NCBI GenBank assembly: GCA_030765065.1
Contig: CM060975.1
Coordinates: 198,184,507 to 198,248,506, forward strand
Direction: 5' to 3'
Origin: Deroplatys truncata
Taxonomy: Eukaryota > Arthropoda > Insecta > Mantodea > Mantidae
Length of the DNA: 64,000 nt
A program made the translations under genes and the position numbers. Positions within the stretch are counted from its first letter, which is position 1. The number at the start of each line of letters is the position of its first letter. Shown here in pieces: positions 1 through 52,161 of the stretch. The notes beneath the pieces were generated by a model, which was not told the origin of the DNA, did no database searches, and was given only the letters and a program-made list of their open reading frames with translations.

Positions 1-350
1 ATTTTTATTTAATTCTTTACATTTTACATAACACGTATGCACTGGCACAACACAAAAGCACTACACACGATACTCAGTTTTAATATTTGCACTAATAACA
101 TCAGGAATAACTGAAGTCTGCAAACAGTCATTTCCCATGTGCAGCCTTACGTACAGAGAACGTGTGTGGCTGATCTATGTGTAAAAAGAGCCTGAGAGCG
201 GATGTACGTCAGCGGTAAAATCTTTTAAATGCATTTTTATTGGCGATGGTAGAAATCGTGCAGTGGTGGATCGTGAAAATTCATATAAATGGATGTATCA
301 CCTCATAATAAGCCTCTATATACCAAGAATATTGAGTTTTTAAAAAGTCA
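1..350 (+). repeat. FB1 left outer terminal inverted repeat
   Basis: Unique-sequence outer part of the left inverted repeat. It pairs base for base with 3400-3749 and contains no tandem units. The inner edge is at GTCAGC, where the first 76-bp unit starts. No convincing open frame is seen. Confidence 0.85.
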
Positions 351-1247
351 GCAACTGTACCTGTGTTTCTATACGTGAACGTCAGATGGCAGCTTCGATA
401 CGTGTCCACGGAGACCTTAGTGCTAGGCAACTGTACCTCTGTTTCTATACGTGAACGGCAGATTGCAGCTTCGATACGTGTCCACGGAGACCTTAGTGCT
501 AGGCAACTGTACCTCTGTTTCTATACGTGAACGGCAGATTGCAGCTTCGATACGTGTCCACGGAGACCTTAGTGCTAGGCAACTGCACCTCTGTTTCTAT
601 ACGTGAACGGCAGATTGCAGCTTCGATACGTGTCCACGGAGACCTTAGCGCTAGGCAACTGCACCTCTGTTTCTATACGTGAACGGCAGATTGCAGCTTC
701 GATACGTGTCCACGGAGACCTTAGTGCTAGGCAACTGTACCTCTGTTTCTATACGTGAACGGCAGATTGCAGCTTCGATACGTGTCCACGGAGACCTTAG
801 TGCTAGGCAACTGTACCTCTGTTTCTATACGTGAACGGCAGATTGCAGCTTCGATACGTGTCCACGGAGACCTTAGTGCTAGGCAACTGCACCTCTGTTT
901 CTATACGTGAACGGCAGATTGCAGCTTCGATACGTATCCACGGAGACCTTAGTGCTAGGCAACTGCACCTCTGTTTCTATACGTGAACGGCAGATTGCAG
1001 CTTCAATACGTGTCCACGGAGACCTTAGTGCTAGGCAACTGTACCTCTGTTTCTATACGTGAACGGGAGATTGCAGCTTCGATACGTGTCCACGGAGACC
1101 TTAGTGCTAGGCAACTGCACCTCTGTTTCTATACGTGAACGTCAGATTGCAGCTTCGATACGTGTCCACGGAGACCTTAGTGCTAGGCAACTGTACCTCT
1201 GTTTCTATACGTGAACGGCAGATTGCAGCTTCGATACGTGTCCACGG
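351..1247 (+). repeat. 76-bp tandem repeat array, left arm of FB1
   Basis: About 11.8 head-to-tail copies of a 76-bp unit that includes CTCTGTTTCTATACGTGAAC and GTCCACGGAGACCTTAGTGC. The unit spacing can be read directly (CTCTGTTTC at 437 and 513). Copies differ by only a few substitutions, such as GTACC/GCACC and TGCT/CGCT. The outermost unit is a variant (CTGTG, GTCAGATGG) and its exact complement is the outermost unit of the right arm. Confidence 0.9.
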
Positions 1248-1628
1248 GCATCTTGCTCAATATGATTTTTGTTTTATTGCCCGGGCGTGACGCATTGCGC
1301 GGCGCGCGTTTGCCGTAAACCGTTACAGTTGCCGTACTTATATTATCCTTTTTTTAAAAAAAAAATCTTCGCCATCTTAGTTCACAAATTCACCGCTAAT
1401 TCCTTCTCGTCATTTTTCATCCAATCACCTTTGATTTTATTTTCGCCTATCACATCACGTTATTTCAATTTGTCCACCTATCAGAGATCGTCTTATTTAC
1501 ACCAATCACAACGCTCCACGTCACTACTTGTTCTGCTTTTTAACCCTCGGTCGTGCATGTTTTGCGTCCTTGAGTTTCCATACCTCGCACACGCAACACC
1601 ACAGCGCGATAACATGTCCACGTGCTAG
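1248..1628. other. Central segment of FB1, CCAAT-rich non-coding part
   Basis: Non-repeated left half of the foldback centre. It opens with a CpG-rich stretch (GCGCGGCGCGCG near 1300), then a T/A tract, then several CCAATCA/CTATCA motifs. The run CCAATCACAACGCTCCACGT with the following CTTTTTAACCCTCG closely resembles copies near 7700, 8560 and 9705, so the segment shares ancestry with the 7.5-9.9 kb region. I see no credible coding frame here. Confidence 0.6.
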
Positions 1629-1836
1629 CTGGTGTACCGGTACGATCGCCTCCTGGGCCTGCTCAACGCCGAGGAAGTGGTAGTGCAGACCTGCGTACCC
1701 GTGACGAACCAGGTCATGTACGTGGTGTTGAGGTAACTCCGAGGAGAGCCCCAAGGAGATCCACGCTACCAATACCGTGATTGCGGCTTACACCACGGCA
1801 CACAAGTGCCTAGTGTTATTTTGTCACCTGAAGCGA
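1629..1836 (+). pseudogene. Fragment resembling protein-primed family B DNA polymerase, frameshifted
   Basis: Read from 1629 the frame gives about 36 codons (start LVYRYDRLLGLLNAEE, end VTNQVMYVVLR) to a stop at 1737. A one-base shift there opens a second frame to about 1836 with TNTVIAAYTTAH and a following helix-like stretch. In family B polymerases of Polintons, adintoviruses and similar viruses, a TNxxIAAxTT-type stretch precedes the catalytic DTDS motif. The DTDS motif itself is not present, because the 76-bp array starts at 1838. The codons are GC-rich, unlike the surroundings. A TAG lies directly upstream. The fragment is too short and broken to be functional, and the identification is by motif memory only. 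Confidence 0.45.
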
Positions 1837-1837
1837 A

Positions 1838-3399
1838 AGGTCTCCGTGGACACGTATCGAAGCTGCAATCTGCCGTTCACGTATAGAAACAGAGGTACAG
1901 TTGCCTAACACTAAGGTCTCCGTGGACACGTATCGAAGCTGCCATCTGACGTTCACGTATAGAAACACAGGTACAGTTGCCTAGCACTAAGGTCTCCGTG
2001 GACACGTATCGAAGCTGCAATCTGCCGTTCACGTATAGAAACAGGTATAGTTGCCTAGCACTAAGATCTCCGTGGACACGTATCGAAGCTGCAATCTGCC
2101 GTTCACGTATAGAAACAGAGGTATAGTTGCCTAGCACTAGCACTAAGGTCTCCGTGGACACGTATTGAAGCTGCAATCTGCCGTTCACGTATAGAAACAG
2201 AGGTACAGTTGTCTAGCACTAAGGTCTCCGTGGACACGTATAGAAACACAGGTACAGTTGCCTAGCACTAAGGTCTCCGTGAACACGTATCGAAGCTGCA
2301 ATCTGCCGTTGACGTATAGAAACAGGTATAGCTGCCTAGCACTAAGATCTCCGTGGACACGTATCGAAGCTGCAATCTGCCGTTCACGTATAGAAACAGA
2401 GGTACAGCTGCCTAGCACTAAGGTCTCCGTGGACACGTATTGAAGCTGCAATCTGCCGTTCACGTATAGAAACAGAGGTGCAGTTCCCTAGCACTAAGGT
2501 CCCCGTGGATACGTATCGAAGCTGCAATCTGCCGTTCACGTATAGAAACAGAGGTGCAGTTGCCTAGCACTAAGGTCTCCGTGGACACGTATCGAAGCTG
2601 CAATCTGACGTTCACGTATAGAAACAGAGGTGCAGTTGCCTAGCACTAAGGTCTCCGTGGACACGTATCGAAGCTGCAATCTCCCGTTCACGTATAGAAA
2701 CAGAGGTACAGTTGCCTAGCACTAAGGTCTCCGTGGACACGTATTGAAGCTGCAATCTGCCGTTCACGTATAGAAACAGAGGTGCAGTTGCCTAGCACTA
2801 AGGTCTCCGTGGATACGTATCGAAGCTGCAATCTGCCGTTCACGTATAGAAACAGAGGTGCAGTTGCCTAGCACTAAGGTCTCCGTGGACACGTATCGAA
2901 GCTGCAATCTGCCGTTCACGTATAGAAACAGAGGTACAGTTGCCTAGCACTAAGGTCTCCGTGGACACGTATCGAAGCTGCAATCTGCCGTTCACGTATA
3001 GAAACAGAGGTACAGTTGCCTAGCACTAAGGTCTCCGTGGACACGTATCGAAGCTGCAATCTGCCGTTCACGTATAGAAACAGAGGTGCAGTTGCCTAGC
3101 GCTAAGGTCTCCGTGGACACGTATCGAAGCTGCAATCTGCCGTTCACGTATAGAAACAGAGGTGCAGTTGCCTAGCACTAAGGTCTCCGTGGACACGTAT
3201 CGAAGCTGCAATCTGCCGTTCACGTATAGAAACAGAGGTACAGTTGCCTAGCACTAAGGTCTCCGTGGACACGTATCGAAGCTGCAATCTGCCGTTCACG
3301 TATAGAAACAGAGGTACAATTGCCTAGCACTAAGGTCTCCGTGGACACGTATCGAAGCTGCCATCTGACGTTCACGTATAGAAACACAGGTACAGTTGC
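1838..3399 (-). repeat. 76-bp tandem repeat array, right arm of FB1
   Basis: About 20.5 copies of the same 76-bp unit in reverse orientation (for example GGTCTCCGTGGACACGTATC). The array is nearly twice as long as the left arm, so it expanded or contracted after the inverted repeat formed. Shortened units occur near 2035-2055, 2125-2145 and 2215-2245. Open frames through it arise only because three units (228 bp) keep frame. Confidence 0.9.
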
Positions 3400-3749
3400 T
3401 GACTTTTTAAAAACTCAATATTCTTGGTATATAGAGGCTTATTATGAGGTGATACATCCATTTATATGAATTTTCACGATCCACCACTGCACGATTTCTA
3501 CCATCGCCAATAAAAATGCATTTAAAAGATTTTACCGCTGACGTACATCCGCTCTCAGGCTCTTTTTACACATAGATCAGCCACACACGTTCTCTGTACG
3601 TAAGGCTGCACATGGGAAATGACTGTTTGCAGACTTCAGTTATTCCTGATGTTATTAGTGCAAATATTAAAACTGAGTATCGTGTGTAGTGCTTTTGTGT
3701 TGTGCCAGTGCATACGTGTTATGTAAAATGTAAAGAATTAAATAAAAAT
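3400..3749 (-). repeat. FB1 right outer terminal inverted repeat
   Basis: Reverse complement of 1-350. It ends in AATTAAATAAAAAT, after which the sequence (CAGCAGATACTTCC) is no longer matched by anything in the window. Confidence 0.85.
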
Positions 3750-3839
3750 CAGCAGATACTTCCTTTCTAAGGAGTAACACCAACTGTTGAATATAAATTC
3801 TCAAAGTGCTACGTTCGTACGACCTCTACCCTCTATATC

Positions 3840-6695
3840 TTATAGGTGAGTACGAAAGTATGTAGATCGCGTTAAAATACACAACTTATGTCATATACAT
3901 CTTTATTGTTGAGTGAACCGTTTTCGAGATATTGCTTGTTATTTACTTAAATTTTCCAATAGTTATTTTCTCAAATGGGAATTCGTTATTCATTTTTTTT
4001 TTGTCTTTGATATGCAAAGAGTATTAATCTGTGGCAAAAAGAATGGTACTGCACATAGCAACCAGCTATTAAGAGATATGTATGTGCTTAAAGGCTACTG
4101 TTTTTCTATATTCCCCTTGTAAATATATTTTCCCTACATCTACAACAAAATTAGCAATAAAATAGAGTTTGCAAATGTTTATCTCGATTAACATGAACTA
4201 GATGGGGAATAAGCGTTTGTAAAAATACTTTGTACAAGAGATGAGAAAAGTCATGTGAGTGTTACACATCAGATTTTTTTTATGTGTTTCAGTGGGTGAA
4301 TAATAATTAGTTTTGTTGGTATCGTTATCACAGTACTGTTTCACTTGTGAAATCCCGTTCTCTTTGTATTAAAAAAAATGGCTCTAACGATTTTGATGAA
4401 AAATATCGTATGTTTAAGATAATGTCGTGAGAAATGAAATGTATATCTCGAATTTTCTGGGAATGTCTCCAAAAGTATTCTTCATTGTGAACGTCTTTTT
4501 CATAACTGAAAAACCGTAAGAGATAGACAAAATTTTACTACACAAAAAATGTAGATCGCGTTAAAATACACATCTTATGTAATATACATTTTTGTTGTTG
4601 AGTGAACCGTTTTCGAGATATTGTTTGTTAATTTTCCAATATTTATTTTCTCAAATGGGACTTCGTTATTCATTTTTTTTTGTCTTTGATATGCAAACAG
4701 TATTAATCTGTGGCAAAAAGAATGGTGCTGCACATAGCAACCAGCTATTAAGAGATATGTATGTGCTTAAAGGCTACTGTTTTTCTATATTCCCCTTGTA
4801 AATATATTTTCCCCTACATCTACAAGAAAATTAGCAATAAAATAGAGTTTGCAAATGTTTATCTCGATTAACATGAACTAGATGGGGCATAAGCGTTTGT
4901 AAAAATACTTTGTACAAGAGTAGAGAACGTCATGTGAGTGTTACACATCAGATTTTTTTTATATACAAGAAAATTAGCAATAAAATAGATTTTGCAAATG
5001 TTTATCTCGATTAACATGAACTAGATGGGGAATAAGCGTTTGTAAAAATACTTTGTACAAGAGTTGAGAAAGTCATGTGAGTGTTACACATCAGATTTTT
5101 TTTTTGTTTCAGTGGTATCGTTATCACAGTACTGTTTCACTTGTGAAATCCCGTTCTCTTTGTATTAAAAAATGGCTCTAACGATTTTGATGAAAATATC
5201 ATATATTTAAGATAATGTCGAGAGAAATGAAATGTATATCTCGAATTTTCTGGGAATGTCTCCAAAAGAATTCTTCATTGTGAACGACTTTTTCATAACT
5301 GATAAACCGTAAGAGATAGACAAAAGTTTGCTACACAAAAAATGTAGATCGCGTTAAAATACACAACTTATGCCATATACATTTATTTTGTTGAGTGAAC
5401 CGTTTTTCGAGATATTGCTTGTTATTTCCTTTAAATTTTCCAATACTTATACTTTTTCTCAAATGCGTTATTCATTTTTACTTTCTCTACTACGTATAGT
5501 AAGTAGGGGAAGTATTGCATTCCACCCAAAAATTCGATACCGAGATTTCACTGGAAATACATGTTTTGAGAATCACTGAATCCAGAAAAAAAAAGCATTT
5601 TTGGAAACATGTCCGTGTGTGTGTCTGTCTGTGTGTCTGTGTGTCTGTGTGTCTGTCTGTCTGTGCGTCTGTGTGTCTGTGAACAGCATAACTCAAAAAC
5701 GAACAGTCGGATAAACACCAAACTTGGTATTTAGGTTCAGTATGCATAACTGGTAAACCATAAGAGATAGCCAAAATTTTACGACACAAAAAATGTAGAT
5801 CGCGTTAAAATACAAATTTATGTCATATACATTTTTTTTAGTTGAGTGAACCATTTTCGAGATATTGCTTGTTATTTCCTTAAATTTTCCAATTCTTATA
5901 CTTTTTCTCAAATGCGTTATTCATTTTTACTTTCTCTACTACGTATAGTAAGTAGGGGAAGTATTGCATTCCACCCAAAAATTCGTTACCGAGATTTCAC
6001 TGGAAATACATGTTTTGAGAATCTCTGAATCCAAAAAAAAAAGCATTTTTGGAAACATGTCCGTGTGTGTGTCTGTGAACAGCATAACTCAAAAACGAAC
6101 AGTCGGATAAACACCAAACTTGGTATTTAGGTTCAGTATCTTCCAGAGATGCGACACGAAGGTTTTCAAGAAAATCCCCCCACCCCAGACTACCCTTTAC
6201 ATGGAACATTTTTCGAAAATTTTAATTTTCTCAAAAACGGCTCTAACGATTTTGATTAAAACATCATATGTTTAAGATATTGTCATGTCAAATAAAATGT
6301 ATATCTCGAATTTTCTGCGAATGTCTCCAAAAATATTCTTCATTGTGAACGACTTTTGCATAACTGGTAAACCATAAGAGATAGACAAAATTTTACTACA
6401 CAAAAAATGTAGACCGCGTTAAAATACACAACTTATGTCATATACGTTTCTTTTGTTGAGTGAACCGTTTTCGAGATATTGCTTGTTATTTCCTTAAATT
6501 TTCCAATACTTATACTTTTTCTCAAATTCGTTTATTCATTTTTTTTATGTCCTGAACATGCAAACAGAATGGAATTCGCCACATAGCAACCAGCGTTAAA
6601 ATATTTGACTATCGCTTAAAAGCTACCAATTAGATTGTACAAGAGTAGAGAAAGTCATGTGAGTGTAACACATCAGTTTTTTTTATACGCTACTA

Positions 6696-6731
<36 letters not shown>

Positions 6732-7100
6732 CGCGAGTACGTGCCTAGTATCCGTGCGCCACAAGCCAAAACGACGACGTTATAGAAAAACTTTATCATT
6801 TGCCTACCGGCCAGGGACAACCGCTAAAAAACCTGAAAAAAGCTCTAAGAGTATTCTAACGCTTACCGATCTGGAAAACCCTTGAAAACAAGATAGTACA
6901 CTTTTGAGATATTGCTTGTTATTTCCTTAAATTTTTCAATACTTTTTTACTTTCTCTACTACGTATAGTAAGTAGGGGAAGTATTGCATTCCGCCCAAAA
7001 ATTCGATACCGAGATTTCACCGGAAATACACGTTTTGAGACCTCCTGAATCAAAAAAAAAAAAAAAAAAAAAAGCATTTTTGGAAACATGTCCGTGTGTG
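3840..7100 (-). repeat. Family E repeat cluster, left side (degenerate multi-copy)
   Basis: Staggered, diverged copies of one repeat. The phrase GTAGATCGCGTTAAAATACA recurs near 3863, 4552, 5344, 5791 and, with one change, 6410. The terminal motif beginning TTTTTACTTTCTCTACTACG recurs at 5475, 5934 and 6944. The orientation is opposite to 10080-10578. Internal phrases (CAAACTTGGTATTTAGGTTC, CACCCAAAAATTCG) recur at many later loci. GT/CTGT microsatellites lie at about 5610-5680, 6700-6735 and 7093-7165. No coding sequence is supported. Confidence 0.75.
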
Positions 7101-7199
7101 TGTGTGCCTGTCTGTGTGTCTATCTGTCTCTCTCTCTCTGTGTGTGTGTGTGTGTGTGCGCGCGGGTACGTGCCTAGTATCCGTGCGCCGACAAGGTAA

Positions 7200-7500
7200 A
7201 ACTTCATCATTTGCCTACCGGGCAGGGACAACCGCTAAAAAACCTGAGAAAACCTCGAAAATTAGAAACGCCTTCGTCAACCAGTACAGAAAACGCCTAC
7301 CAACCAGGGAAAACCTATGAAAAAGCAGAAAGAGCTTGCATTTGTTTACCATCCGCAGAAAACTCCCAAAAAAATAAAAAAAAAAAACTAGTTATTTTTT
7401 AAAAAAAAAAAAGGAAAAAGACGAATAATATAAGTATGGTAGAAACAGCTTGCATTCGTCTACCAACCAGAGAAAACCCCCGAAACACTAGTTATTTAAA
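7200..7500. repeat. Short degenerate repeats with CTACC-AACC phrases
   Basis: Three to four loose copies of a phrase built on TTTGCCTACC...GGGCAGGGACAACC...AAAACC (also near 6800), separated by A tracts. Nothing gene-like is visible. Confidence 0.4.
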
Positions 7501-7529
7501 ATTGCTGATGAGTTCTGGATAGGCTTTTG

Positions 7530-9924
7530 CAAATGTTGTTGGTAGCAAAACTTGCCTTTTCCATCACCTCCAACATACCCCACTCCCACACCTTTTTTCT
7601 TTCCACCAATCATAATCTCTCTTATTCTCGCCAATCAGCAACTTTCATTTGTTCCTTTCCACCAATAACATCACTTCTTATTCCCACCAATGACAACTTC
7701 ACACGTCACTTTCTGTTATACTTTTTATCCCTCGTTCGCCATCTTTTCCCCTCTTTCAGACCCCAACCGCCGCACAGTCAACACCTCGCCGCTCCTTAAC
7801 CTCAACTTCGTGCCTCCGCCATCTTATTTAGTTCACATTTTTACCACCGCGCCTCTCATCTCTCAACCAGATTGCCTGCAAGAACAGATCTCGTTCATTC
7901 GCACCTCGACGGTTGCCTCGGCAGCAGCTACTGCCAACACCTACGTCGTACACGTTTTTGACCGCTTTCGACCGGCTATGAGAACCCTGCTCCTACGTAC
8001 GCTAGCGACCATCACGATGGTCCAGTACCAGGTTTTTGGTATAGTTAAATTACGCCTCTGCAAAGGGTGTCTGTACCGCTTTAAAAACCTAGGTATATCA
8101 GTGCGTAGTGATGTTGGTTGATCTTAAAGCTGGTTAAGCATTTTCAAAAACAGTTTGCTTTTATTTTTCCGTCTCGCGTGCCGCGCTTTTAGTTCCCATT
8201 CTCACCACCGCATCTCCTTACCCCACCTCTTGCGACCGCCATGTTCACCACTAACCTCCAAATTTCCTCGTCCTTAAACCTCTTGTCTCAACCACCTTGT
8301 TTAGTTCCCATTTTCGCCACCGCATCTCATATCGCCCCATCTCTCTATCCACTCAAGAAAACTACCATCCAACGTTCAAAAAAAATTGCTGATCAGTTCA
8401 CGACAGGCTTTTGCAAATCTTGTTGCTAGCAAAACTTACCTTTCCCATCACCTCCAACATACCCCACTCCTTTTTCTTTCCACCAATCATAATCTCTCTT
8501 ATTCTTACCAATCAACAACCTTCATTTGTTCCTTTCCACCAATAACAACACTTCTTATTCCCACCAATCACAACTTCACACGTCACTTTCTGTTATACTT
8601 TTTATCCCTCGTTCGCCATCTTTCCCCCTCTTTCAGCCCCCAACCTCCGCACAGACAACGTCTCACCGCTCCTTAACCTCAACTTCGTGCCTCCGTCATC
8701 TTATTTAGTTCCCATTTTTACCACCGCGCCTCTCATCTCCCAACCACATTGCCGGCAAGAACAGATCTCGTTCATTCGCACCTCGACGGTTGACTCGGTA
8801 GCAGCTACTGCGAACACCTACGTCGTACACGTTTTTGACCGCTTTCGACCGGCTATGAGAACCCTGCTCCTACGTACGCTAGCGACCATCACGATGGTCC
8901 AGTACCAGGTTTTTGGTATAGTTAAATTACGCCTCTGCAAAGGGTGTCTGTACCGCTTTAAAAACCTAGGTATATCAGTGCGTAGTGATGTTGGTTGATC
9001 TTAAAGCTGGTTAAGCATTTTCAAAAACAGTTTGCTTTTATTTTTTCGCGTCGCGTGCCGCGCTTTTGGTGACGCATCCACACCGGTAACAGGTAAGTAC
9101 CACACGCATAATTATTTTTCGGACCTGCTTGGCGTAGGAATATATCCTTTCGTGTTTTGGTACTGTAACCTCAAACCTCCTTACCCACCTCTTGCGTCCG
9201 CCATCTTGTTTAGTTCTCACCGCATCTCCTTGTCGCAGACCCTCCGCCATTTTTAGTTCCCACTATTTTAACCTCAAAATCTACTCTTCTAAACTCTTGC
9301 TTCCCCCATCTTCTTTTAGTTCCCATTCTCACCACCGCGTCTCCTTACCCCCCACCTCTTGCGACTGCCATGTTCACCACTAACCTCAAAATTTCCTCGT
9401 CCTTAAACCTCTTGTCTCAAACACCTTGTTTAGTTCCCATTTTCGCCACCGCATCTCATATCGCCCCCCATCTCTCTATCCACTCAAGAAAAAACTACCA
9501 TCCAACGTTCAAAAAAATTGCTGATCAGTTCACGACAGGCTTTTGCAAATCTTGCTGCTAGCAAAACTTACCTTTCCCATCACCTCCAACATACCCCACT
9601 CCCACAACTTTTTCTTTTCCACCAATCATAATCCCTCTTATTCTTACCAATCAACAACTCTCATTTGCTCCTTTCCACCAATAAAATCACTTCTTATTCC
9701 CACCAATCACAACTTCACACGTCACTTTCTGTTACACTTTTTATCCCTCGCTCCCCATCTTTACCCCTCTTTCAGTACCGACCTCCGCACAGACAACACC
9801 TCGCCACCCAATTCCTCTCCATCACGCGACCTCCATACTCCTCCATCTTCCTTCCTTCATCTCCCACCCCAAATTAACGAACCAATCAAAACACTCCACG
9901 TCACTTCCTCAATTCTTTCAACTC
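7530..9924. repeat. CCAAT- and GCCATCTT-rich region with an 877-bp direct duplication
   Basis: The stretch around 7530-8190 recurs at 8400-9070 with a fixed 877-bp offset over the near-identical 330-bp 3' part (ACAGATCTCGTTCATTCGCA to the run ending near 8190/9067). A third, partial copy covers 9535-9790. CCAATCA/CCAATAA motifs are clustered, and CGCCATCTTRTTTAGTTCYC-type phrases recur near 7817, 8695, 9199 and 9313. The mix resembles NF-Y and YY1 sites and could be promoter-like DNA of a mobile element. Open frames here (for example 7690-8121) have no recognisable domain and fail in the third copy. A good splice-donor match, CAGGTAAGTA, lies at 9089. Confidence 0.6.
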
Positions 9925-10073
9925 GTCCCGGATGAGCCAATCGATTTAACGATAATCCTACCGCTCAGGGCGCTTTTCAAACTTACCGCCGCCGCCGCCG
10001 CACGCAGCGACACTAGCGACACTAGCGCCCCTAGCGGCAGGATTATCGTTAAAACAATTGGCTCATCCGGGAC
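9925..10073. mobile_element. 149-bp palindromic MITE-like element
   Basis: The left end GTCCCGGATGAGCCAATCG is the imperfect reverse complement of the right end (CAATTGGCTCATCCGGGAC). Pairing continues through ATTTAACGATAATCCT/AGGATTATCGTTAAA for about 45 bases. The loop is GC-rich with CCG repeats and a doubled CGACACTAG. No clear target duplication is seen (flanks TTTCAACTC and TATTACT). Confidence 0.65.
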
Positions 10074-10079
10074 TATTAC

Positions 10080-10390
10080 TACTCTTATGGTTTACCAGTT
10101 ATGCAAAAGTCGTTCACAATGGAGAACACTTTTGGAGACATTCCCAGAAAATTCGAGATATACAATTCATTTTTCATGACATTATCTTAAACATGTGATA
10201 TTTTCATCAAAATCGTTAGAGCCATTTTTGAGAAAATTAAAATTTTCGAAAAATGTTCCATGTAAAGGGTAGTCTGGGGTGGGGGGATTTTCTTGAAAAC
10301 CTTCGTGTCGCATCTCTGGAAGATACTGAACCTAAATGCCAAGTTTGGTGCTTATCCGACTGTTCGTTTTTGAGTTATGCTGTTCACAGG

Positions 10391-10421
<31 letters not shown>

Positions 10422-10578
10422 ACACACAGACACACACACGGACATGTTTCCAAAAATGCTTTTTTTGGATTCAGGAGGTCTCAAAACATGTATTTCCGGC
10501 GAAATCTCGGTATCGAATTTTTGGGTGGAATGCAATACTTCCCCTACTTACTATACGTAGTAGAGAAAGTAAAAATTA
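10080..10578 (+). repeat. Family E repeat, right side, inverted relative to 3840-7100
   Basis: Reverse complement of the 5475-6380 copies, ending in a 31-base terminal motif at 10545-10575 that is the exact reverse complement of 5475-5505. A (CA)n microsatellite occupies about 10389-10440. Together the two sides make a 5-kb inverted-repeat structure around 7100-10075. Confidence 0.75.
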
Positions 10579-24389: not shown

Positions 24390-25259
24390 TGTTTATTTAT
24401 TAATTTATTTATTTTATTTCGTTTTACCTACATGGTCATATAGCAACGGACCTGTTAGTAGATAACTCATGAATCGATGTGTGGCGAACAGTTGGCTTTC
24501 TAAGTCTCATCCCCGTAACCGTACCATCTGGCTTCGTCACTTGTCCACAGAGACCTTAGTGCATAGCAACTGTATCATGCAACACGCGCAGATGGCATTA
24601 GGGTGTCGTCCAGTCTAACTGCTTCCATTGTCTGCGGATAAAAAGGCGAACTATTAGCTTTCTAAGTCTCATCCCCGTAACCGTACCATCTTGCTTCGTC
24701 ACTTGTCCACAGAGACCTTAGTGCATAGCAGCTGTATCTTGCAACCCGCGCAGATGACATTAGGGTGCCGTCCAACCTACCTGCTTCCACAGTTAGGCTT
24801 CTAGGTCTCGTCCCTGTAACCATACCGTCTTTCCATTCAGTCTACCTCCTTCCATTGTCTGTGAATAGAAAAGCGGACAGTTAGCCTTGTAGGTCTCATC
24901 CCTGTAACCATACAATTTTGCTTCGTCACGTGCCCACAGAAACCTTAGTGCATAGCAACTGTATCTTCTCTTTCGTTCCGTCCAGATGGCATTAGAGTGC
25001 CGTCCAGTCTAGTTGCTTCCATTGTTTGAGGATAGATGGCACAGCATTCTCTATTACCATCTATTTTTCATGTTACTATTGTTTTAGACTTAAGGTGGAA
25101 CTTTGGGTCGTGGTATTAAATATTCAATCCGATATTTAATTTAGCAGCTGAGTGAAACCACGAAGAAACCTCAGTCAGATTGATCGCCCCACGGGATTTG
25201 AACTCGGGTCTTCCCGAATGCAGGGCATCACACATTACCAGCCGAGCTAACCCGCTCGA
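24390..25259 (-). mobile_element. Composite tRNA-headed retroposon with internal tandem repeats (SINE-VNTR)
   Basis: Flanked by an exact 13-bp target duplication. On the minus strand it starts at 25258 with a tRNA-like head (A box TTAGCTCGGCTGG, B box GAGTTCAAATCCC at 25193-25205), then a SINE-like body. Next come three to four degenerate tandem units (24495, 24657, about 24797, about 24890; first spacing 162 bp). It ends in an A-rich AAATAAAATAAATAAATTAA tail at 24391-24420. Two units contain GTCCACAGAGACCTTAGTGC, then GCAACTGTAT and CAGATGGCATTA, matching the order of motifs in the FB1 76-bp unit. The head, tail and duplication show LINE-type retrotransposition of the whole 870 bp. No protein is encoded. 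Confidence 0.8.
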
Positions 25260-41464: not shown

Positions 41465-42012
41465 AATTTATCCATGTGCTTGTGTATAAATCGTCAACTC
41501 CTTAAGTGTAGTGGTTCGCTTATGAATTATTGACAGTTTCCACGAGACTCTCCATTTATCCATGTTTTTGTGTATAAAGCGTCAACTCCTTAAGTGTAGT
41601 GGTTCGCTTATGAATTATTGACAGTTTCCACGAGACTCTCCATTTATCCATGTTTTTGTGTATAAAGCGTCAACTCCTTAAGTGTAGTGGTTCGCTTATG
41701 AATTATTGACAGTTTCCAGGAGACTCTACATTTATCAATGTGTTTGTGTACAAAACGTCAACTCCTTAAGTGTAGTGGTTCGCTTATGAACTATTGACAG
41801 TTTCCAGGAGTCTCTACATTCATCCATGTGTTTGTGTACAAAACGTCAACTCCTTAAGTGTAGTGGTTCGCTTATGAACTATTGACAGTTTCCAGGAGTC
41901 TCTACATTCATCCATGTGTTTGTGTATAAAGCGTCAACTCCTTAAGTGTAGTGGTTCGCTTATGAATTATTGACAGTTTCCAGGAGACTCTACATTTATC
42001 CATTCATTTTGT
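41465..42012 (+). repeat. 88-bp tandem array, six copies
   Basis: CGTCAACTCCTTAAGTGTAG occurs at 41492, 41580, 41668, 41756, 41844 and 41932, a constant 88-bp period. Adjacent units share private variants (TTTCCACGAGACTCTCC in the first ones, TTTCCAGGAG in the later ones), showing stepwise expansion. The paralogous segment near 62840-62930 has a single unit. Confidence 0.9.
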
Positions 42013-43550: not shown

Positions 43551-43554
43551 GGCT
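43551..43554. repeat. LTR retrotransposon target duplication, left copy
   Basis: GGCT directly before the 5' LTR, repeated at 52162-52165. A 4-bp duplication is usual for Ty3-type integrases. Confidence 0.75.
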
Positions 43555-44049
43555 TGAAACGGCAACTCTAGGCCGAGCCCAAGAACTGTAATTACAGATA
43601 ACTTATTAATTAACTTTTAGTGATGTTAAATCGTATTATGTAAATATCTTTTTCTCATACTGCTTGTATATTTTAAGAAGGGTGATTTAACGTTATGTAT
43701 CTATCTAGGTTATTAATATTAGTAGAGTTATAAATGGTTTAATGTAAATAATTTAAGCGCTATGTTAAAATACTGTCCACGAGGGAATGTTTTAGCTACA
43801 GGAATAGTGCTTTCGAAGGCAGAAAACCTAGTTTTATTACCTCTCTCCGGTCGCAGTGCTATTATTCCTACAGCGAGGGTGTAGAGCCTTTGTCCCATTA
43901 TTTGATAATTCGCCGTGACCAAGTGAGTGAGAAGGACAATCTAACGGTACATGTAGGAAAAGCCGCGATTTATATTAAACATTGGACCAATGAAATCCCT
44001 GAAAGTCTATTCGAAATAGTTAGACGCGTCGAGTCGCGCTAAAAATGTA

Positions 44050-44092
44050 CCAATAGGAAAGGAAGCAGCCTCAGGAGCCTGAGACTATAAAT
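44050..44092 (+). promoter_or_regulatory. LTR promoter: CCAAT and TATA boxes
   Basis: CCAAT at 44050-44054 and TATAAAT at 44086-44092, 32 bases apart. The same pair is in the 3' LTR (51516-51520 and 51552-51558). Placement fits a pol II promoter for the genomic RNA. Confidence 0.6.
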
Positions 44093-44130
44093 GGATCTGT
44101 TTGGGGAAAATTCGGGGCAGTTTATGTCAT

Positions 44131-44303
44131 GTGTGGTCAGGGAGAGATGCTGCAGGATGTGTGAGATATCGCGCCAAAAAGGGAATCAAGTCAAATTTGT
44201 CATGTCAGCTTAGTATTGCATTTTATTCGAGAGTTTTCGTAATGTGTGGTCAGGGAGAGATGCTGCAGGATGTGTGAGATATCGCGCCAAAACAGGGAAT
44301 CAA
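44131..44303 (+). repeat. Internal 60-bp direct repeat of the LTR
   Basis: GTGTGGTCAGGGAGAGATGC begins at 44131 and again at 44244, each followed by about 40 further matching bases (ATATCGCGCCAAAA). It lies just after the TATA box, probably in R, and is repeated in the 3' LTR at 51597 and 51710. Confidence 0.85.
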
Positions 44304-44454
44304 AATAGTTTTAGCAACACACCTAAGATCCGCTACTCTGAAAGCGACAATAAGAATAGTTATATTTCGTGACATATCCACGCCATAGTCTAACAGCGGT
44401 GGACAGTATTTTACAGCGGCAATACCAGTTTTGTATACTACGAGTGTTAAATTA

Positions 44455-44460
44455 AATAAA
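44455..44460 (+). promoter_or_regulatory. Polyadenylation signal in LTR
   Basis: AATAAA in ATTAAATAAAAAG; the copy at 51921-51926 would end the transcript. Confidence 0.6.
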
Positions 44461-44698
44461 AAGAAACGGCAGTGTCATCTTTTCATAAACAAAGCAAGTC
44501 TATGTCTTCCTATATCACCACCCGAGATCTACGTTTTCCTTTACCGAGGATAAGTCCATGCTCCCATATAATTTAAGGAAAATTACTGCAGCTAGCCGAG
44601 GATAAATTGAAGAACCAACACGCTGAGAACTTCTGGAAGCAACGGGAGAAGCATCAAGGTAAGCTACAGCAACGGATGAGGAGGTGATCGCCGCAAAC

Positions 44699-44720
44699 TG
44701 GCGCCATAACGTGGAGCTCG
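44699..44720 (+). promoter_or_regulatory. Primer binding site, tRNA-Lys type
   Basis: TGGCGCCATAACGTGGAGCTCG, read across 44699-44720, starts three bases after the LTR. Against the complement of the 3' end of insect tRNA-Lys(CUU) it differs by an AT for C change after TGGCGCC and one G-to-A change. tRNA-Lys priming is known for gypsy-type elements. Confidence 0.75.
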
Positions 44721-44990
44721 AAGGGAAGAACGACACAAACGGAGGACTAGGAAACAACGAACAGACGAAGAATCTTCAGAGGAAAGGGGCACAGCAGAAC
44801 AAAATTACAACGCGAACTTCTAGTCTACCTACGTGGGACAACAAAACAGCTGAGAGCATCGCTTCTAGAACTTCACCAGGATTCGAACCCGGAACGCATC
44901 AGTTAACATAAAAAAAAATACAGGTTAGAACATTTATTCAAAAAAAAAACAAAAAGGCATGCAGAGTAGTGACTCAGTTTTGGTGAACAC

Positions 44991-47045
44991 ATGCTATTGA
45001 GAGGGGGTAAAGTCATTACTAGGGAGGTAGAACTTGCTAACGGAACCATGAGTAGGTCAAGGGAAGGTTCAGAAGAACTGGATGGGGAGGCTATTGTCAG
45101 CATAACAACAGATGGAAAAAATATGGGTGCAGCAGAAGTAGAAGTTAGGCTAGAAAGGCAATCACCGATGGAGCAGGTCATTGACGCAGGTCAAAACCAG
45201 CTGCTAATATTGCTTCAACATTTGAGCACAAAGATAGACGAGATGGGTAAGGACTTAAATGAGCAGAGGAAGGACTCACGTGAACAAAATAAAAATTTAG
45301 AGGGGAAATTAGGTGAGCAGAGTAAAAACTTGGAAAAATTAAGTGAGCAAAGTAAGAATTTAGAGGGGAAATTAGGTGAGCACAGTAAAAACTTAGAAAA
45401 ATTAAGTGAACAAAGTAAAAATTTAGAAGGGAAATTAAATGAGCAGAGTATACATATAGGTGAATATGTCAGAGAGGAAAACAGGAAGATGAGAGGGGAA
45501 TTAGCTCAGGAGATGAGGGAATATTTAGGTGAACAGGTCACCCGATTACAAAGTCAATTGGACTCCAAATTCAGTCAGCAAGGGAAGGTAGTGCAAGAAA
45601 TTCAGGCAGGACAACTATGTCTAAGAAACGATGTAGAAAAACTAAGGAAGGATGTAGAAACAGAATTAAGTGTTACCAGCTTAGCCATAAAGGAGCAATT
45701 GGATGATGACTTAAGAGCTGTAAATGTTTCTTTAGAAAAAAAACAAAGTACATTAGAATCTAACATTCAAAGGGAGTTCAGAGAATTTAGAACAGTGTTA
45801 GAAAAGGATCAGGGAAAGATGAATGAACTTTCGTCAAAAATGACTGAACAGCTCTCAAATCATCATGAAATTGTGAAGAGGGTGGAAGAGCATGAAAATT
45901 GTGTAAAGGAGTTAAAACGCTCTATTGGTAGACTAGGGATAAGTGTGAGACAGAGTGATGATAGCTCACCCAGTGAAACTAGCACCACTTTTAGGGAGGT
46001 AAATGGAGGCCAAAGTCCAGCTGCCGACCCATATAATTTTAATTCAGGGCACCAATGTACATCTAACCATGCAAGTAATGCAAACTACCATTTATTAAAT
46101 GAGATAGGGGTACCTACTTTCGAGGAAAATTCGGCTGATAATCCTAAACAATACCTAAATGACCTTGAGGAGTATTTCCGTTTGAAGCAGATTCCGGACG
46201 AGCTAAAGATGTTAATCGTTCGTAAAGGTTTACGTCAAAGGGTTCTCCAATGGGTAAGATTGACTTTGGGGGAGAATAATAATTTTGAATATTTCAGAAG
46301 GGCATTTTTGAATAAGTACTGGAGTACTAATACTCAGAACCAGGTGAGATCTATCCTAGTTAATGGCAAGTACGATGAACGCGGAAACCTAAGCATGGTA
46401 GATTATTTGCTAACTAAAGCACAGAGTAGTAGACTAATCGAGCCACCCATAAGCGAGAGGGATTTCATTAATATGATTGTACCACATTATCCAGAACGTA
46501 TACACCATTACCTACTCATTGCGAAGCCAAATTCTATTCCCGAATTGATTGAGTTGGTATCATCATTCGAGACAAGTAGTAGGAACCACGTACAAAACTA
46601 TACAGTTCGAACATTACCGGATAATTCAAGGAATGCGAATTGGAGAGGAAACGCGAGAGGGAACTATAACCCCAGAGAGAGATACTGGAACGACGTACCT
46701 CAATCCGGGAACAGAAACTGTCAAAATAACCGTTTCAGGAGGGAAGGTGATAACCAATATCACATAAATGCTATACAAACCAGACCAAGATATAGTGGCC
46801 GTTTTAATTATAGGAGAGGCAGAAACAATGAAAACAGATCCAGAGAACATTATTTTTCTGACCGAGGGGAAAGTGATGTAGGAGAAAGGTATGACGAAAA
46901 TTATCCAGAAAGAAACGAAAGGAGAGAGAGACATTCCCGGGGACATTTTAGAGGAAGCAGAGGAAACTATAGGCAAATGCAGAGAGAGGGAAATGTGGAA
47001 GAGACTAGCGGAGCACCAAATAGTGTCGATAACCCGGAAAACTAA
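44991..47045 (+). CDS. gag: Gag polyprotein of the LTR retrotransposon, coiled-coil type
   Basis: 684 residues from an ATG at 44991, after a 295-bp leader. Residues 70-310 are rich in E, K, Q and L with heptad-like spacing, a long predicted coiled coil. Within it residues 103-144 are two near-identical 21-residue units (LEGKLGEQSKNLEKLSEQSKN type) plus part of a third. Residues 370-530 match the retrotransposon capsid domain (NPKQYLNDLEEYF, LQWVRLTLG, FEYFRRAFLNKYWS). Residues 545-665 are rich in R, G, N and Y (RGNARGNY, RGHFRGSRGNYR). No CCHC zinc knuckle is present, so the arginine-rich tail probably binds RNA. The frame ends at TAA 47043-47045, ten bases into the pol frame. Confidence 0.9.
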   Translation: MLLRGGKVITREVELANGTMSRSREGSEELDGEAIVSITTDGKNMGAAEVEVRLERQSPMEQVIDAGQNQLLILLQHLSTKIDEMGKDLNEQRKDSREQNKNLEGKLGEQSKNLEKLSEQSKNLEGKLGEHSKNLEKLSEQSKNLEGKLNEQSIHIGEYVREENRKMRGELAQEMREYLGEQVTRLQSQLDSKFSQQGKVVQEIQAGQLCLRNDVEKLRKDVETELSVTSLAIKEQLDDDLRAVNVSLEKKQSTLESNIQREFREFRTVLEKDQGKMNELSSKMTEQLSNHHEIVKRVEEHENCVKELKRSIGRLGISVRQSDDSSPSETSTTFREVNGGQSPAADPYNFNSGHQCTSNHASNANYHLLNEIGVPTFEENSADNPKQYLNDLEEYFRLKQIPDELKMLIVRKGLRQRVLQWVRLTLGENNNFEYFRRAFLNKYWSTNTQNQVRSILVNGKYDERGNLSMVDYLLTKAQSSRLIEPPISERDFINMIVPHYPERIHHYLLIAKPNSIPELIELVSSFETSSRNHVQNYTVRTLPDNSRNANWRGNARGNYNPRERYWNDVPQSGNRNCQNNRFRREGDNQYHINAIQTRPRYSGRFNYRRGRNNENRSREHYFSDRGESDVGERYDENYPERNERRERHSRGHFRGSRGNYRQMQREGNVEETSGAPNSVDNPEN

Positions 47046-50000
47046 GACAGGATCCATTCAAGAGCTCGGAGCGGATTCTAAGCGCGCAAAATTCTCAAAT
47101 AAACAGAAAATGTGAAACAGGGCTCAAAAATGAATTTATACTGGGAGAACTGATAACTACTATTCAAAATCACTCGGAAAAGGATCTGACAGATTCCCCT
47201 AGCATAAAAGTAGTATTATTGGATGAAGAATATAACGCTTTAATAGACTCTGGAGCCAATGTGAGTGTATGCAGCCTGAGGTTATATCAGAACCTGGTAA
47301 ATAAAGGAATTAAGCTAATGACATTACCCATAAGGAACACGGTATGCCGGGTAGCAGTTAACAAAGAGGTTACCCGAATAAAAATGCAAGTAATGTTGAA
47401 CATGAAAATAGGAGAAGAAAATTTTGAGTTTATTTTTCTGGTAATCAATAATTTGATTTGTGACATTTTGATTGGGTGTGACGTTTTGTTTGAATTAAGA
47501 GCTAGGGTTGATTTTGCTGATAAAGTTTTGAAAATAGAGAAGAACAGAAAAACATTAGAAATCCCTTTTGTAGAGGGTATGAAGCAGGATACTTATAACA
47601 AAACCCAAGGAGAAGAAGATATAGCCGAAGAAAGATTTTTCGTACAATTATTACAAACAGGTAGGAGTGAGAAATTAATTGCTATAGTACAAGGGGAAGA
47701 AACCGATGAGATGCATGCGTTCGCTGACAGGTTTTACAACGGGTATACGGAGCACAATGAGAAAGATTATGGTTACGCCCGAAATAAAGAATTCCAAGAT
47801 ACCGGCAGCCAGGTAGAAGCAGTAGAGGAGAAAGTGACCCTTGCCGAGAACCTCACAGAGACACAAAGGCATCTATTAAGGCGAATGTTACAAGAAAACA
47901 AAGCGGTATTTTCGGACGTCCCAGGCAAGTGCAAAGCATACAAACACAGTTTTAAGGTACAAGATATTGCACCCTTCACACACAAGTATCGGGATATTCC
48001 GATTGCATTAAGGGAGAGAGCCAAACAGGTGATCGATAAGATGTTGAGAGACCGAATAATACAAACGTCAAATTCTCCGTACAGCAGTCCATTATGTTGG
48101 GTGACGAAACGCAATGGCGAACTTAGGATGACAATAGATGCTCGAAGGATAAATAAATATACACAACCAGACAGATTTCGGAGCGAAAGTGTAGAAAAAT
48201 TGCTGTCAAAAATAACCAAAGGCAAGTATTTCTCCACTATTGATTTAACGGCGTCATACTGGCAGATTGAGCTTCACGAGGATGTTAGAAAGTATACTTC
48301 TTTTTTATTTTTTGGGAAACAGTTCGAATTTTTGAGAATGCCTTTTGGTATGCTTACGTCATGTAGTGGACTATTAAGAGCCATCGATAAAATATTTGGC
48401 GACTCAGCCGACGAATTTTTGATCCAATATATCGACGATTTTCTAATAGTTGATGAAAATTTTGATGAGCATATTAAACATGTGAATTATGTGCTTAGAA
48501 AGCTGAGAGAAAACGGTATGACGGTGAACATTAATAAATCCAAATTTTGCATCCGTGAGGTGGAATTTCTAGGCTATGTAATTAATGATAGAGGAATGAA
48601 GCCAAACGAAGAAAGAGTAGCGGCTGTGAGAAGAATACCAGCGCCCAAGAGTGTTAAGCAGGTTAGGTCCTTTCTTGGAGTGCTAAATTATCAAAGCAAA
48701 TTTATCCTGAGGTACGCCGCAGAAATAGCGCCTTTGCGCGAATTACTTAAAAAGAAAGTGCGATGGAAATGGGACGAGGTACACCAGAAAGCTTTTGAAA
48801 AGATAAAAGAACTATTTGCGAAATCAATTCTACTAGAGAGACCCAAGGACAACCTACCATATGTAATTTACGTGGATGCTTCAGGTCACGGGTATGGGTG
48901 TGTCCTAGCCCAATCAGATGAGGAAAATCAACTGCACGTGATAAGTACCGCTTCAAGAGGTTTAAGTCAAATAGAGAAAAATGCTTCGGTCACCGAATTA
49001 GAGATCTGTGCTGTGTATTACGCACTACAGAAATTTAGATCATATATATATCTACAGAAGGTTATTATATACACAGATCATGTGAGTCTTTCATTTATGA
49101 AACGTTGTCGGCTTACGAGTACTAAATTATCTAGGTACATCCATGAGATTCTTTCGTATGATGTTGAGGTGAAACACATTCCAGGAAAAACAAATGTTTT
49201 TAGCGATTTGCTGTCTAGGTTACATAACAACAGTGAAATACCGGAGAGAATAGAACGCCCTAAAAATGAAGTAACATTAATGAGTATTGAAATACCCTTG
49301 AGTAAAGGATTGATAAAAGAATTAAAAGGAATAGGGGACCAGCAGCGACGAGATGAGAAGTTAAATAAATTAATAAAAAGGGCCCCAGAAATAGATGAAA
49401 ATATCAAGGGAAACATAGGGGTAAAAGGGGGCGTGTTATATAAACTACATGGCAGCGAAATACAGAAATGGAAGACATATATACCTAAGAACATGGAGAA
49501 TGAACTCATAAGCACGTTCCATCAAGCTCTAGCACATTCTGGCTCAGAACGCACAGCTTTAATGATCCAAGAAAATCTGTATATTCCAAAATTACACCAT
49601 AAAGTAAGGAGAATAATTTCGACATGCTTACAATGTCAAAAAGCAAAGCCATTGAATATACAATATGAATACGAGACAAACTCCATACTAAGGGAAAAAC
49701 CAGGCATGTTAGTGACCTTGGACTGTCATGGTGAGATGCCTTGTAGTAAATTTGGATTTAGGTATATAGTGGTGTTAATAGATGTATTTTCAAAATTTGT
49801 GAAAATTTACCCAGTCAGGAAGATTACAAGTGAAACATGCCTAAGGAAGATAATGAAGTCGTATGTTCCACAATTTGGAAAGATGAAGGCAATTTTATGT
49901 GATAATGCTTCAATATTTACCAGCAGAAAATTTGTAGACACCTTAAAAGAAAACGAAATCACGTTGTATCATTGCTCAAAATACCACCCACAAAGCAATC

Positions 50001-50605
50001 CCTGCGAAAGAATAATACGGGACATTTCGGTTTATTTGAGAATTTTGGCCAATAAAAAACACAGTGATTGGGCAAATCACTATCAGCGCATGGAAAGTAT
50101 TTTAAATGAAAGTGTGAGCCCTACTACCGGTTATAAGCCCATCGAGCTGATGAAGGGGAAATTAATGGAAACACTTGAAGGGGAATTACCACAGACACTA
50201 GAAGCTAAAGATCCGAAAGCACTAACGGAAGAAGAGATGTTTAAGAAAGCTTTTGAAAGAATGGCCAATAAGGCGCAGAAAAGAAAAGAAAAGTTTAAGA
50301 AAAAGAAACGAAAACACTGGTTGATCAAATTGGGAGACTTAGTATTGGTACGGGACAAGAAAAAGTCTAGCATTCTGAACAAAAGGTATCATAGAATGGA
50401 AAATTTATTTAAAGGTCCATACCGGGTGATTAACATTTTTGGCTCGGATACATTTGAGTTACAAGAAATAAAGAATTCCAAAATCGTAGGGAGATATCAT
50501 AAACAGTTGCTCAAACCATACAAATGTTTAGAGAATGAGAAGGGTGAAGAATGTAATGAAAATAGTCAGGTTAGTTTTACTCGAAATGAGGTAGCAACCC
50601 TGTGA
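47033..50605 (+). CDS. pol: Pol polyprotein: protease, reverse transcriptase, RNase H, integrase
   Basis: Open in the -1 frame relative to gag from just after a stop at 47030-47032, and probably made by frameshifting in 47033-47042. With the codon at 47219 as residue 1: aspartic protease DSGA at 10-13 and LIGCDVL near 84-90; RT about 260-455 with TIDLTASYWQIEL, MPFGM and YIDD (404-407); RNase H about 548-668 with YVDASG, TELE, YTDH and FSDLLSRL; integrase zinc finger H768, H773, C803, C806; catalytic D835, D895, E930 (34 residues between the last two); GPY-type module FKGPYRV at about 1064-1070. The usual NAPATFQ region reads LTSCSGLLRAI, a variant also known in other insect Ty3 lineages. No stops or frameshifts, and all catalytic residues are present. 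It ends at TGA 50603-50605. Confidence 0.95.
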   Translation, partial: PGKLRQDPFKSSERILSAQNSQINRKCETGLKNEFILGELITTIQNHSEKDLTDSPSIKVVLLDEEYNALIDSGANVSVCSLRLYQNLVNKGIKLMTLPIRNTVCRVAVNKEVTRIKMQVMLNMKIGEENFEFIFLVINNLICDILIGCDVLFELRARVDFADKVLKIEKNRKTLEIPFVEGMKQDTYNKTQGEEDIAEERFFVQLLQTGRSEKLIAIVQGEETDEMHAFADRFYNGYTEHNEKDYGYARNKEFQDTGSQVEAVEEKVTLAENLTETQRHLLRRMLQENKAVFSDVPGKCKAYKHSFKVQDIAPFTHKYRDIPIALRERAKQVIDKMLRDRIIQTSNSPYSSPLCWVTKRNGELRMTIDARRINKYTQPDRFRSESVEKLLSKITKGKYFSTIDLTASYWQIELHEDVRKYTSFLFFGKQFEFLRMPFGMLTSCSGLLRAIDKIFGDSADEFLIQYIDDFLIVDENFDEHIKHVNYVLRKLRENGMTVNINKSKFCIREVEFLGYVINDRGMKPNEERVAAVRRIPAPKSVKQVRSFLGVLNYQSKFILRYAAEIAPLRELLKKKVRWKWDEVHQKAFEKIKELFAKSILLERPKDNLPYVIYVDASGHGYGCVLAQSDEENQLHVISTASRGLSQIEKNASVTELEICAVYYALQKFRSYIYLQKVIIYTDHVSLSFMKRCRLTSTKLSRYIHEILSYDVEVKHIPGKTNVFSDLLSRLHNNSEIPERIERPKNEVTLMSIEIPLSKGLIKELKGIGDQQRRDEKLNKLIKRAPEIDENIKGNIGVKGGVLYKLHGSEIQKWKTYIPKNMENELISTFHQALAHSGSERTALMIQENLYIPKLHHKVRRIISTCLQCQKAKPLNIQYEYETNSILREKPGMLVTLDCHGEMPCSKFGFRYIVVLIDVFSKFVKIYPVRKITSETCLRKIMKSYVPQFGKMKAILCDNASIFTSRKFVDTLKENEITLYHCSKYHPQSNPCERIIRDISVYLRILANKKHSDWANHYQRMESILNESVSPTTGYKPIELMKGKLMETLEGELPQTLEAKDPKALTEEEMFKKAFERMANKAQKRKEKFKKKKRKHWLIKLGDLVLVRDKKKSSILNKRYHRMENLFKGPYRVINIFGSDTFELQEIKNSKIVGRYHKQLLKPYKCLENEKGEECNENSQVSFTRNEVATL

Positions 50606-51020
50606 ACAAATAGTAAAGGTAATACACCCGATAAATAAGGATGTAAAGAAATAAATAAAGGCATAATAATTATGTACCAACATGTATGTAAATAGATTTA
50701 ATTTTAGAACTTAATTTGGGTATTAGTGTATTTGTTTGCGTTACAAGTTATTCGTGTGCGCGAAGTGTATTGGGTATAAGAATGTCTCTCGGAAAACCTG
50801 TTTTTAAAAGGGAGAGAGGAATCAACCATAACAAGGGGTAAGGTGAACGACCCAAATGTAAACACCACTGGTTTGGCAGAACCCTTGTGAAGGAGCAGGT
50901 ATAGCGAAGGGTCTCTGTCAACAAAACAAACGAACAAAGGCCATAATCAGAGGAATTATTCTGTAAAAGAAAATTGTATCAACTGTTGAAAAATTTATTC
51001 TTTTCCAGAACAGGGCAATT
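50606..51020 (+). other. Non-coding stretch between pol and 3' LTR
   Basis: 415 bp without an env-like frame. The best purine run, AAAAGGGAGAGAGGAA, is at about 50807-50822, some 200 bp before the LTR. The 20 bases next to the LTR (TTTTCCAGAACAGGGCAATT) are not a good polypurine tract. Confidence 0.6.
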
Positions 51021-52161
51021 TGAAACGGCAACTCTAGGCCGAGCCCAAGAACTGTAATTACAGATAACTTATTAATTAACTTTTAGTGATGTTAAATCGT
51101 ATTATGTAAATATCTTTTTCTCATACTGCTTGTATATTTTAAGAAGGGTGATTTAACGTTATGTATCTATCTAGGTTATTAATATTAGTAGAGTTATAAA
51201 TGGTTTAATGTAAATAATTTAAGCGCTATGTTAAAATACTGTCCACGAGGGAATGTTTTAGCTACAGGAATAGTGCTTTCGAAGGCAGAAAACCTAGTTT
51301 TATTACCTCTCTCCGGTCGCAGTGCTATTATTCCTACAGCGAGGGTGTAGAGCCTTTGTCCCATTATTTGATAATTCGCCGTGACCAAGTGAGTGAGAAG
51401 GACAATCTAACGGTACATGTAGGAAAAGCCGCGATTTATATTAAACATTGGACCAATGAAATCCCTGAAAGTCTATTCGAAATAGTTAGACGCGTCGAGT
51501 CGCGCTAAAAATGTACCAATAGGAAAGGAAGCAGCCTCAGGAGCCTGAGACTATAAATGGATCTGTTTGGGGAAAATTCGGGGCAGTTTATGTCATGTGT
51601 GGTCAGGGAGAGATGCTGCAGGATGTGTGAGATATCGCGCCAAAAAGGGAATCAAGTCAAATTTGTCATGTCAGCTTAGTATTGCATTTTATTCGAGAGT
51701 TTTCGTAATGTGTGGTCAGGGAGAGATGCTGCAGGATGTGTGAGATATCGCGCCAAAACAGGGAATCAAAATAGTTTTAGCAACACACCTAAGATCCGCT
51801 ACTCTGAAAGCGACAATAAGAATAGTTATATTTCGTGACATATCCACGCCATAGTCTAACAGCGGTGGACAGTATTTTACAGCGGCAATACCAGTTTTGT
51901 ATACTACGAGTGTTAAATTAAATAAAAAGAAACGGCAGTGTCATCTTTTCATAAACAAAGCAAGTCTATGTCTTCCTATATCACCACCCGAGATCTACGT
52001 TTTCCTTTACCGAGGATAAGTCCATGCTCCCATATAATTTAAGGAAAATTACTGCAGCTAGCCGAGGATAAATTGAAGTACCAACACGCTGAGAACTTCT
52101 GGAAGCAACGGGAGAAGCATCAAGGTAAGCTACAGCAACGGATGAGGAGGTGATCGCCGCA
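51021..52161 (+). repeat. 3' LTR
   Basis: Same length as the 5' LTR, at a constant offset of 7466. The only difference found by reading is T at 52079 against A at 44613. Followed directly by GGCT (52162-52165). Confidence 0.95.

Follow-up and report, generated by a model that had tools for sequence, protein, structure and literature searches.

In the genome of the mantis Deroplatys truncata (assembly GCA_030765065.1), a 64,000-nucleotide stretch of contig CM060975.1 (C1 below; forward strand, positions 198,184,507 to 198,248,506), which we call the window and number from its first letter, opens inside a transposable element that we place among the Mavericks/Polintons by its ends, its target duplications and its relatives bearing a family B DNA polymerase (PolB). 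The intact form of this element is a single palindrome of ~18 kb, in which a 28-nt spacer separates two arms of ~9 kb. It has no working gene and shares its ends, as read over 158 bp, with PolB-coding Mavericks of the same genome, features that give it the appearance of a parasite on a virus-like transposon. The best explanation, which we hold to be probable, is that it is a non-autonomous Maverick/Polinton whose replication passes through a hairpin and is driven by helper elements.

A preliminary description of the window had recognised a foldback element at positions 1-3749. The foldback architecture and the tandem-repeat arms stand; the extent does not, as these positions are only the middle of an element more than four times longer, whose continuation past 1 and 3749 was missed because the window begins inside it. 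The inverted repeat extends outward (window 3749-10084 against the upstream flank, 99.65% over 6,343 aligned bp), and the complete copy occupies C1:198178169-198194589 (16,421 bp), with 6,338 bp before the window and its other end at position 10083. Arm pairing, termini and target duplication define the part inside the window (1..10083), which includes the right outer arm (3750..10083, plus strand) with internal duplications such as 7498-8190 against 8382-9067; the left outer arm (6,338 bp) lies at C1:198178169-198184506. Close to the tip stands a terminal hairpin (9925..10073) with 50-nt arms that are 90% complementary and a folding z-score of -11.7 as single-stranded DNA, followed by the terminus TATTACTACT (10074..10083, plus strand), which together with the opposite end AGTAGTAATA displays the Maverick (AGT)2//(ACT)2 end motif, and by CTTATG, the right-hand copy of the 6-bp target duplication, located by flank comparison (10084..10089, plus strand).

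The same boundaries recur elsewhere in the genome. The possibility raised earlier, of a mere duplicated segment with no fixed ends, was checked in six copies and not found: all 12 arms stop at one common base (...CCGGGACTA(T/A)TACTACT), all 12 carry the end motif AGTAGT...ACTACT, and the 6-bp target duplications match in each copy (CTTATG in the window copy, then AATACA, AGCGCT, TGTCTG, TACAAT and GACGTT). Their full lengths are 16,421, 15,741, 17,328, 16,962, 18,050 and 17,606 bp. These ends and duplications, together with the PolB-bearing relatives described below, bear out the suggested link to Polinton/virus-type elements. Around the window copy, positions 10084-10576 and the upstream flank carry pieces of a dispersed repeat found several times inside the outer arms; since both flanks hold it, the insertion went into a repeat related to the element's own arm content.

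Inward of the outer arms, the repeats at 1-1254 and 2496-3749 (1254 nt) are 100% identical after rounding. A letter-by-letter walk meets its first mismatch only after 430 nt, so that the outer 350 bp pair exactly, as had been claimed: the left inner block (1..350, plus strand) is the exact reverse complement of the right inner block (3400..3749, minus strand). For positions 1-350 the genome gave 853 first-look candidate matches, and the best 40, which were scored, are likewise all 100% identical. Next come two arrays of a 76-bp unit, correctly described as unequal: 897 bp on the left (351..1247, plus strand, 11.8 units) and 1,563 bp on the right (1837..3399, minus strand, about 20 units, from overlapping rows). 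A 37-nt centre (1246..1282, plus strand) contains the 28-nt spacer between GGGC and GCCC, and a single core half follows (1255..1836, plus strand). The arms of the window copy are unequal because part of its centre has been lost secondarily, and this central loss shortened the left array. Farther along the window, at 24483-24960, the units of a 162-bp tandem repeat share 45 nt at 84-87% identity with the 76-bp unit, a comparison with the rest of the window giving E 1e-8; this repeat is either an older relative of the 76-bp unit or derived from a common source repeat.

The architecture of the intact form emerges from other copies. The 40 identical matches to 1-350 group into 25 places, of which we fetched 20 (15 pairs and five of ten single matches), a sample biased to young copies by its selection through 100%-identical matches. 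The 28-nt spacer is common to all 20 (up to three substitutions allowed), and in 15 of them (12 of a first 15 and three of a further five) the core is present twice, in opposite orientation. In 14 of these 15, the two 620-nt flanks of the spacer show 0-3 mismatches in alignments of 614-618 bases; L023, the fifteenth, has three mismatches over 546 bases beside the spacer. The distance from spacer to outer block measures 2,471-2,478 bp in 17 of the 30 halves, and the two halves differ by a gap of at least 76 bp in ten of the 15 copies, the gap being a multiple of 76 in nine of these. One core is wholly or partly missing in the other five copies (the window copy L009, L011, L019, L024 and L026). 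L024 and L026 keep a single core, and their second side is rearranged; in L026 the final ~1.25 kb of outer arm come directly after the core. Across the whole genome, exact matches to the 37-nt centre number 574 (285 in one orientation, 289 in the other), and those to a symmetric 68-nt centre 476 (242 and 234), each against 0 for the reversed-pattern control. At about 17.8 kb apiece, 574 copies amount to about 10 Mb, or 0.24% of the 4.29-Gb assembly.

The core also preserves the trace of a polymerase gene. A broken PolB fragment of 235 bp (1602..1836, plus strand), interrupted by a stop and a frame change, reads toward the right terminus. PolB pieces of three families from the same genome align to it in two frames plus the stop, at 41-48% and 53-56% identity (tblastn, best E 6e-15), and its DNA is closest to the PolB of an element with the same termini (74.9% identity over 231 bp, E 1e-43), which confirms the family B polymerase-like fragment that had been suspected in the centre. 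The stop is identical in 35 of 35 full-length fragments (36 pieces compared), and the remnant lies between the NSFWGKYG and FDTDS/YFDTDS stretches of PolB. Over the whole genome, the PF03175 profile gave 152 matches from the best 76 of 11,882 candidates, with open frames of up to 1,350 amino acids, and matched none of 14 control genomes. L042, L043, L044 and L045 are further PolB-bearing Maverick families of this genome; in L045, PolB is followed by an ATPase-like frame (labelled by eye, Pfam giving none), two small frames and an rve integrase.

The element itself does not carry the gene set of an autonomous Maverick (intact PolB, integrase, ATPase, protease and capsid). Six tested of the 24 listed open reading frames of at least 60 amino acids in the outer arms gave no Pfam match, to a transposase or otherwise, nor did three short core peptides, the polymerase being recognised solely against PolB of the same genome. 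The other Maverick proteins of L045 had no tblastn match at E 1, and blastn aligned nothing from the stretch after the L045 PolB with window 1-10083 at E 0.01. PolB C-termini aligned weakly to 7959-8054 and 8821-8931 (tblastn E 0.02-0.5), which we take as chance.

Elements that do encode PolB were found between the same termini, as the preliminary description had anticipated. The 20-nt terminus has 1,785 and 1,797 exact matches in the genome (3,582; control 0), about three times the two expected per exact centre, an excess that is an upper estimate because changed centres go uncounted. We paired facing termini less than 25 kb apart over the first 100 places, which cover C1 up to 154.9 Mb, and obtained 46 pairs. 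Eighteen contain the centre and have a median length of 17.8 kb (range 16.0-19.0). Four others, of 19,055, 19,591, 19,757 and 19,797 bp, contain a 24-nt PolB tag (169 exact matches genome-wide; control 0) and no palindrome centre; they account for all four matching-family PolB tags on this part of C1, and in each the tag sits 9.3-9.8 kb inward from the terminus that lies upstream of the gene. From the middle of the 19,757-bp pair, 401 bp form an open PolB frame beginning at FDTDS, and the 300 bp before it continue the open frame and carry the DNA-level match to the remnant; the 24-nt tag was taken from this gene. When the 158-bp terminus of the window copy was compared with the genome, 40 scored termini (the best 40 of 412 first-look candidates) were 99-100% identical to it, among them the right terminus of a PolB-bearing pair (C1:134591252-134591409, 99%) and a terminus at C2:155977327 with the tag 9.3 kb inside (99%).

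In the six copies, the two outer arms of a copy are, moreover, each other's closest relatives. With columns 780-1510 dropped for all six copies and 5,132-5,873 bases compared, mismatches within a copy number 8, 11, 15, 2, 20 and 9, against 74, 22, 65, 24, 29 and 22 to the nearest arm of another copy, and a tree pairs the outer arms of each copy in six of six cases with support of 0.97-1.0. Over all columns, the variants private to a copy occur in both arms at 36, 5, 18, 7, 5 and 10 sites and in one arm only at 10, 47, 15, 2, 18 and 7 sites, while the arms split between two states known in other copies at 2, 4, 2, 0, 3 and 4 sites. Identical ends had earlier been read as a sign of recent insertion or gene conversion, and in our judgement the reading of recent activity is right.

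We propose that a strand of a founder Maverick would have bent back on itself at a short inverted repeat (GGGC/GCCC) and served as its own template, so that one end became duplicated in inverted orientation and each tip carried a replication origin. A single fold-back event at the start of the family is indicated by the shared spacer, with GGGC on one side and GCCC on the other. Such a two-origin palindrome with Maverick ends would need trans factors alone, and coding Mavericks would supply the polymerase, the terminal protein and the integrase. Protein-primed strand displacement would release a single strand able to form a ~9-kb hairpin, and the duplex would be restored from one arm, so that both arms would be identical ahead of integration. 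The integrase would insert the product with a 6-bp duplication, which fits an rve-type enzyme like the one read in another Maverick family (L045), and losses close to the centre, of array units or of parts of the core, would follow later, as in the window copy. The available portion of PMC8097293 describes the end-triplet repeats of Mavericks as serving the jumping-back step of protein-primed replication. Replication of the element probably proceeds through a hairpin, with mobilisation in trans.

More tentatively, the element might be a satellite of the defective-interfering type, copied by its helper via the ~9-kb hairpin, with each insertion starting from arms copied from one and its size perhaps held by packaging. 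The median of 17.8 kb in the 18 centre-bearing pairs compares with 19.1-19.8 kb in the four PolB-bearing pairs, and element size may be kept in bounds by a capsid; as of PMC8097293, in its available portion, no Maverick particles had been observed. Exact centres (574) outnumber exact helper PolB tags (169), two patterns that differ in length and in tolerance to change.

The main rival keeps the same element and the same helper but has it replicate as an ordinary Maverick, with the arms kept alike by gene conversion after insertion. Gene conversion does keep large chromosomal palindromes alike, for example those of Y chromosomes, and both routes predict the likeness of arms within a copy. Against it, the array lengths of the halves have stayed uneven, with differences of at least 76 bp in ten of 15 copies; the differences between arms are mostly private changes of one arm, which is what drift would leave after an insertion with equal arms, a pattern that is compatible with conversion too. 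We regard this rival as rather unlikely. Much further down the scale is the reading that a member of a different superfamily, of foldback or cut-and-paste type, picked up a fragment of PolB, which we strongly disfavour: the long tandem-repeat arms would resemble those of Foldback, Galileo and Tetris elements as the available excerpts describe them, but the 6-bp duplications, the (AGT)2 ends and the same-end elements bearing PolB speak against it. Foldback and Galileo target duplications have lengths other than 6 bp. Least probable of all, to the point of being barely credible, is an artefact of sequencing or assembly (a hairpin read), or else a segment duplicated in inverted orientation that has no ends of its own. 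Palindromic reads are a known artefact; here, however, the flanks are not mirrored, private changes separate the arms, the 574 centres are dispersed and split into 285 and 289 per orientation, and, at the level of the assembly, fixed ends with matching 6-bp duplications in six of six copies make an artefact unlikely.

Several observations weigh against helper-driven hairpin replication of a palindromic Maverick. Just over half of the terminus pairs (24 of 46, 10.0-19.6 kb) have neither an exact centre nor a PolB tag; these may be members of one class or the other that have mutated, or may form a third. The coding content of same-termini elements is known here from 701 bp (PolB) of one of them. 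When all columns are kept, one copy (a) shows 51 mismatches between its own arms and 25-27 to the nearest other copies, an exception that arises because a 795-bp deletion was misaligned. The inner halves are closer within a copy than to the nearest other copy in four of 15 cases and equal in one; by this yardstick, which is strict, being the lowest of many comparisons, they do not show closer within-copy pairing. Conversion within the chromosome could also be the source of identical arms, and the element is known from genome sequence.

Elsewhere, the window carries a young gypsy-type retroelement (43554-51319) with identical 300-bp repeats at 43554-43853 and 51020-51319 and open frames at 44991-47045 and 47219-50605, the second of which matches RVT_1, RNase H and rve. 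An 88-bp tandem array of 6.1 copies (96%) occupies 41466-42003. Across the window, Rfam gave no match at gathering score and the tRNA search found none.

A gene-less parasite that shares its ends with coding Mavericks makes Maverick replication testable, including protein priming, hairpin intermediates and arm copying, and the same system does so for a packaging constraint on length. Long palindromes are generally considered unstable; here hundreds of near-perfect ones of ~18 kb persist in a genome of animal size. The literature searched, with Repbase and subscription papers outside its range, gave no match for a palindrome that approaches genome length, is almost devoid of genes and exists in hundreds of copies, and no paper naming non-autonomous or palindromic Polintons/Mavericks.

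Among known systems, Foldback elements (FB, Galileo, Tetris) are similar in having, in the excerpts available, long inverted repeats with internal tandem units; the present element differs in having the ends, target duplication and relatives of a Maverick, and its 6-bp duplications in six of six copies, with no transposase match in the six reading frames tested, do not fit FB or Galileo. Invertron-type linear plasmids likewise combine protein priming with inverted terminal repeats, and racquet- or panhandle-shaped intermediates are discussed for them; they are mitochondrial, gene-carrying and not palindromic throughout, according to the available portion of PMC1864894. Vertebrate Mavericks have (AGT)2//(ACT)2 or (AG)3//(CT)3 ends, 6-bp target duplications and a mean size of about 17 kb with about 10% variation, as given in the accessible part of PMC8097293. 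The mantis element resembles these Mavericks, so far as that part describes them, in its (AGT)2//(ACT)2 ends, 6-bp duplications, inverted terminal repeats, PolB ancestry and length near 17 kb, and it combines the duplication, end motif and terminal repeats with the ends of PolB-coding relatives, as a non-autonomous member should. It departs from them in having no intact gene, terminal repeats over nearly its whole length, 76-bp arrays and hundreds of near-identical copies. Protein-primed viruses such as adenovirus produce defective genomes with an inverted duplication of one genome end. Like these, the element would have an inverted end duplication and origins at both tips, and it has no genes and a near-genome length; it is palindromic with a PolB remnant, its comparison with a coding-element end spanning 158 bp, and, unlike them, it is integrated and heritable.

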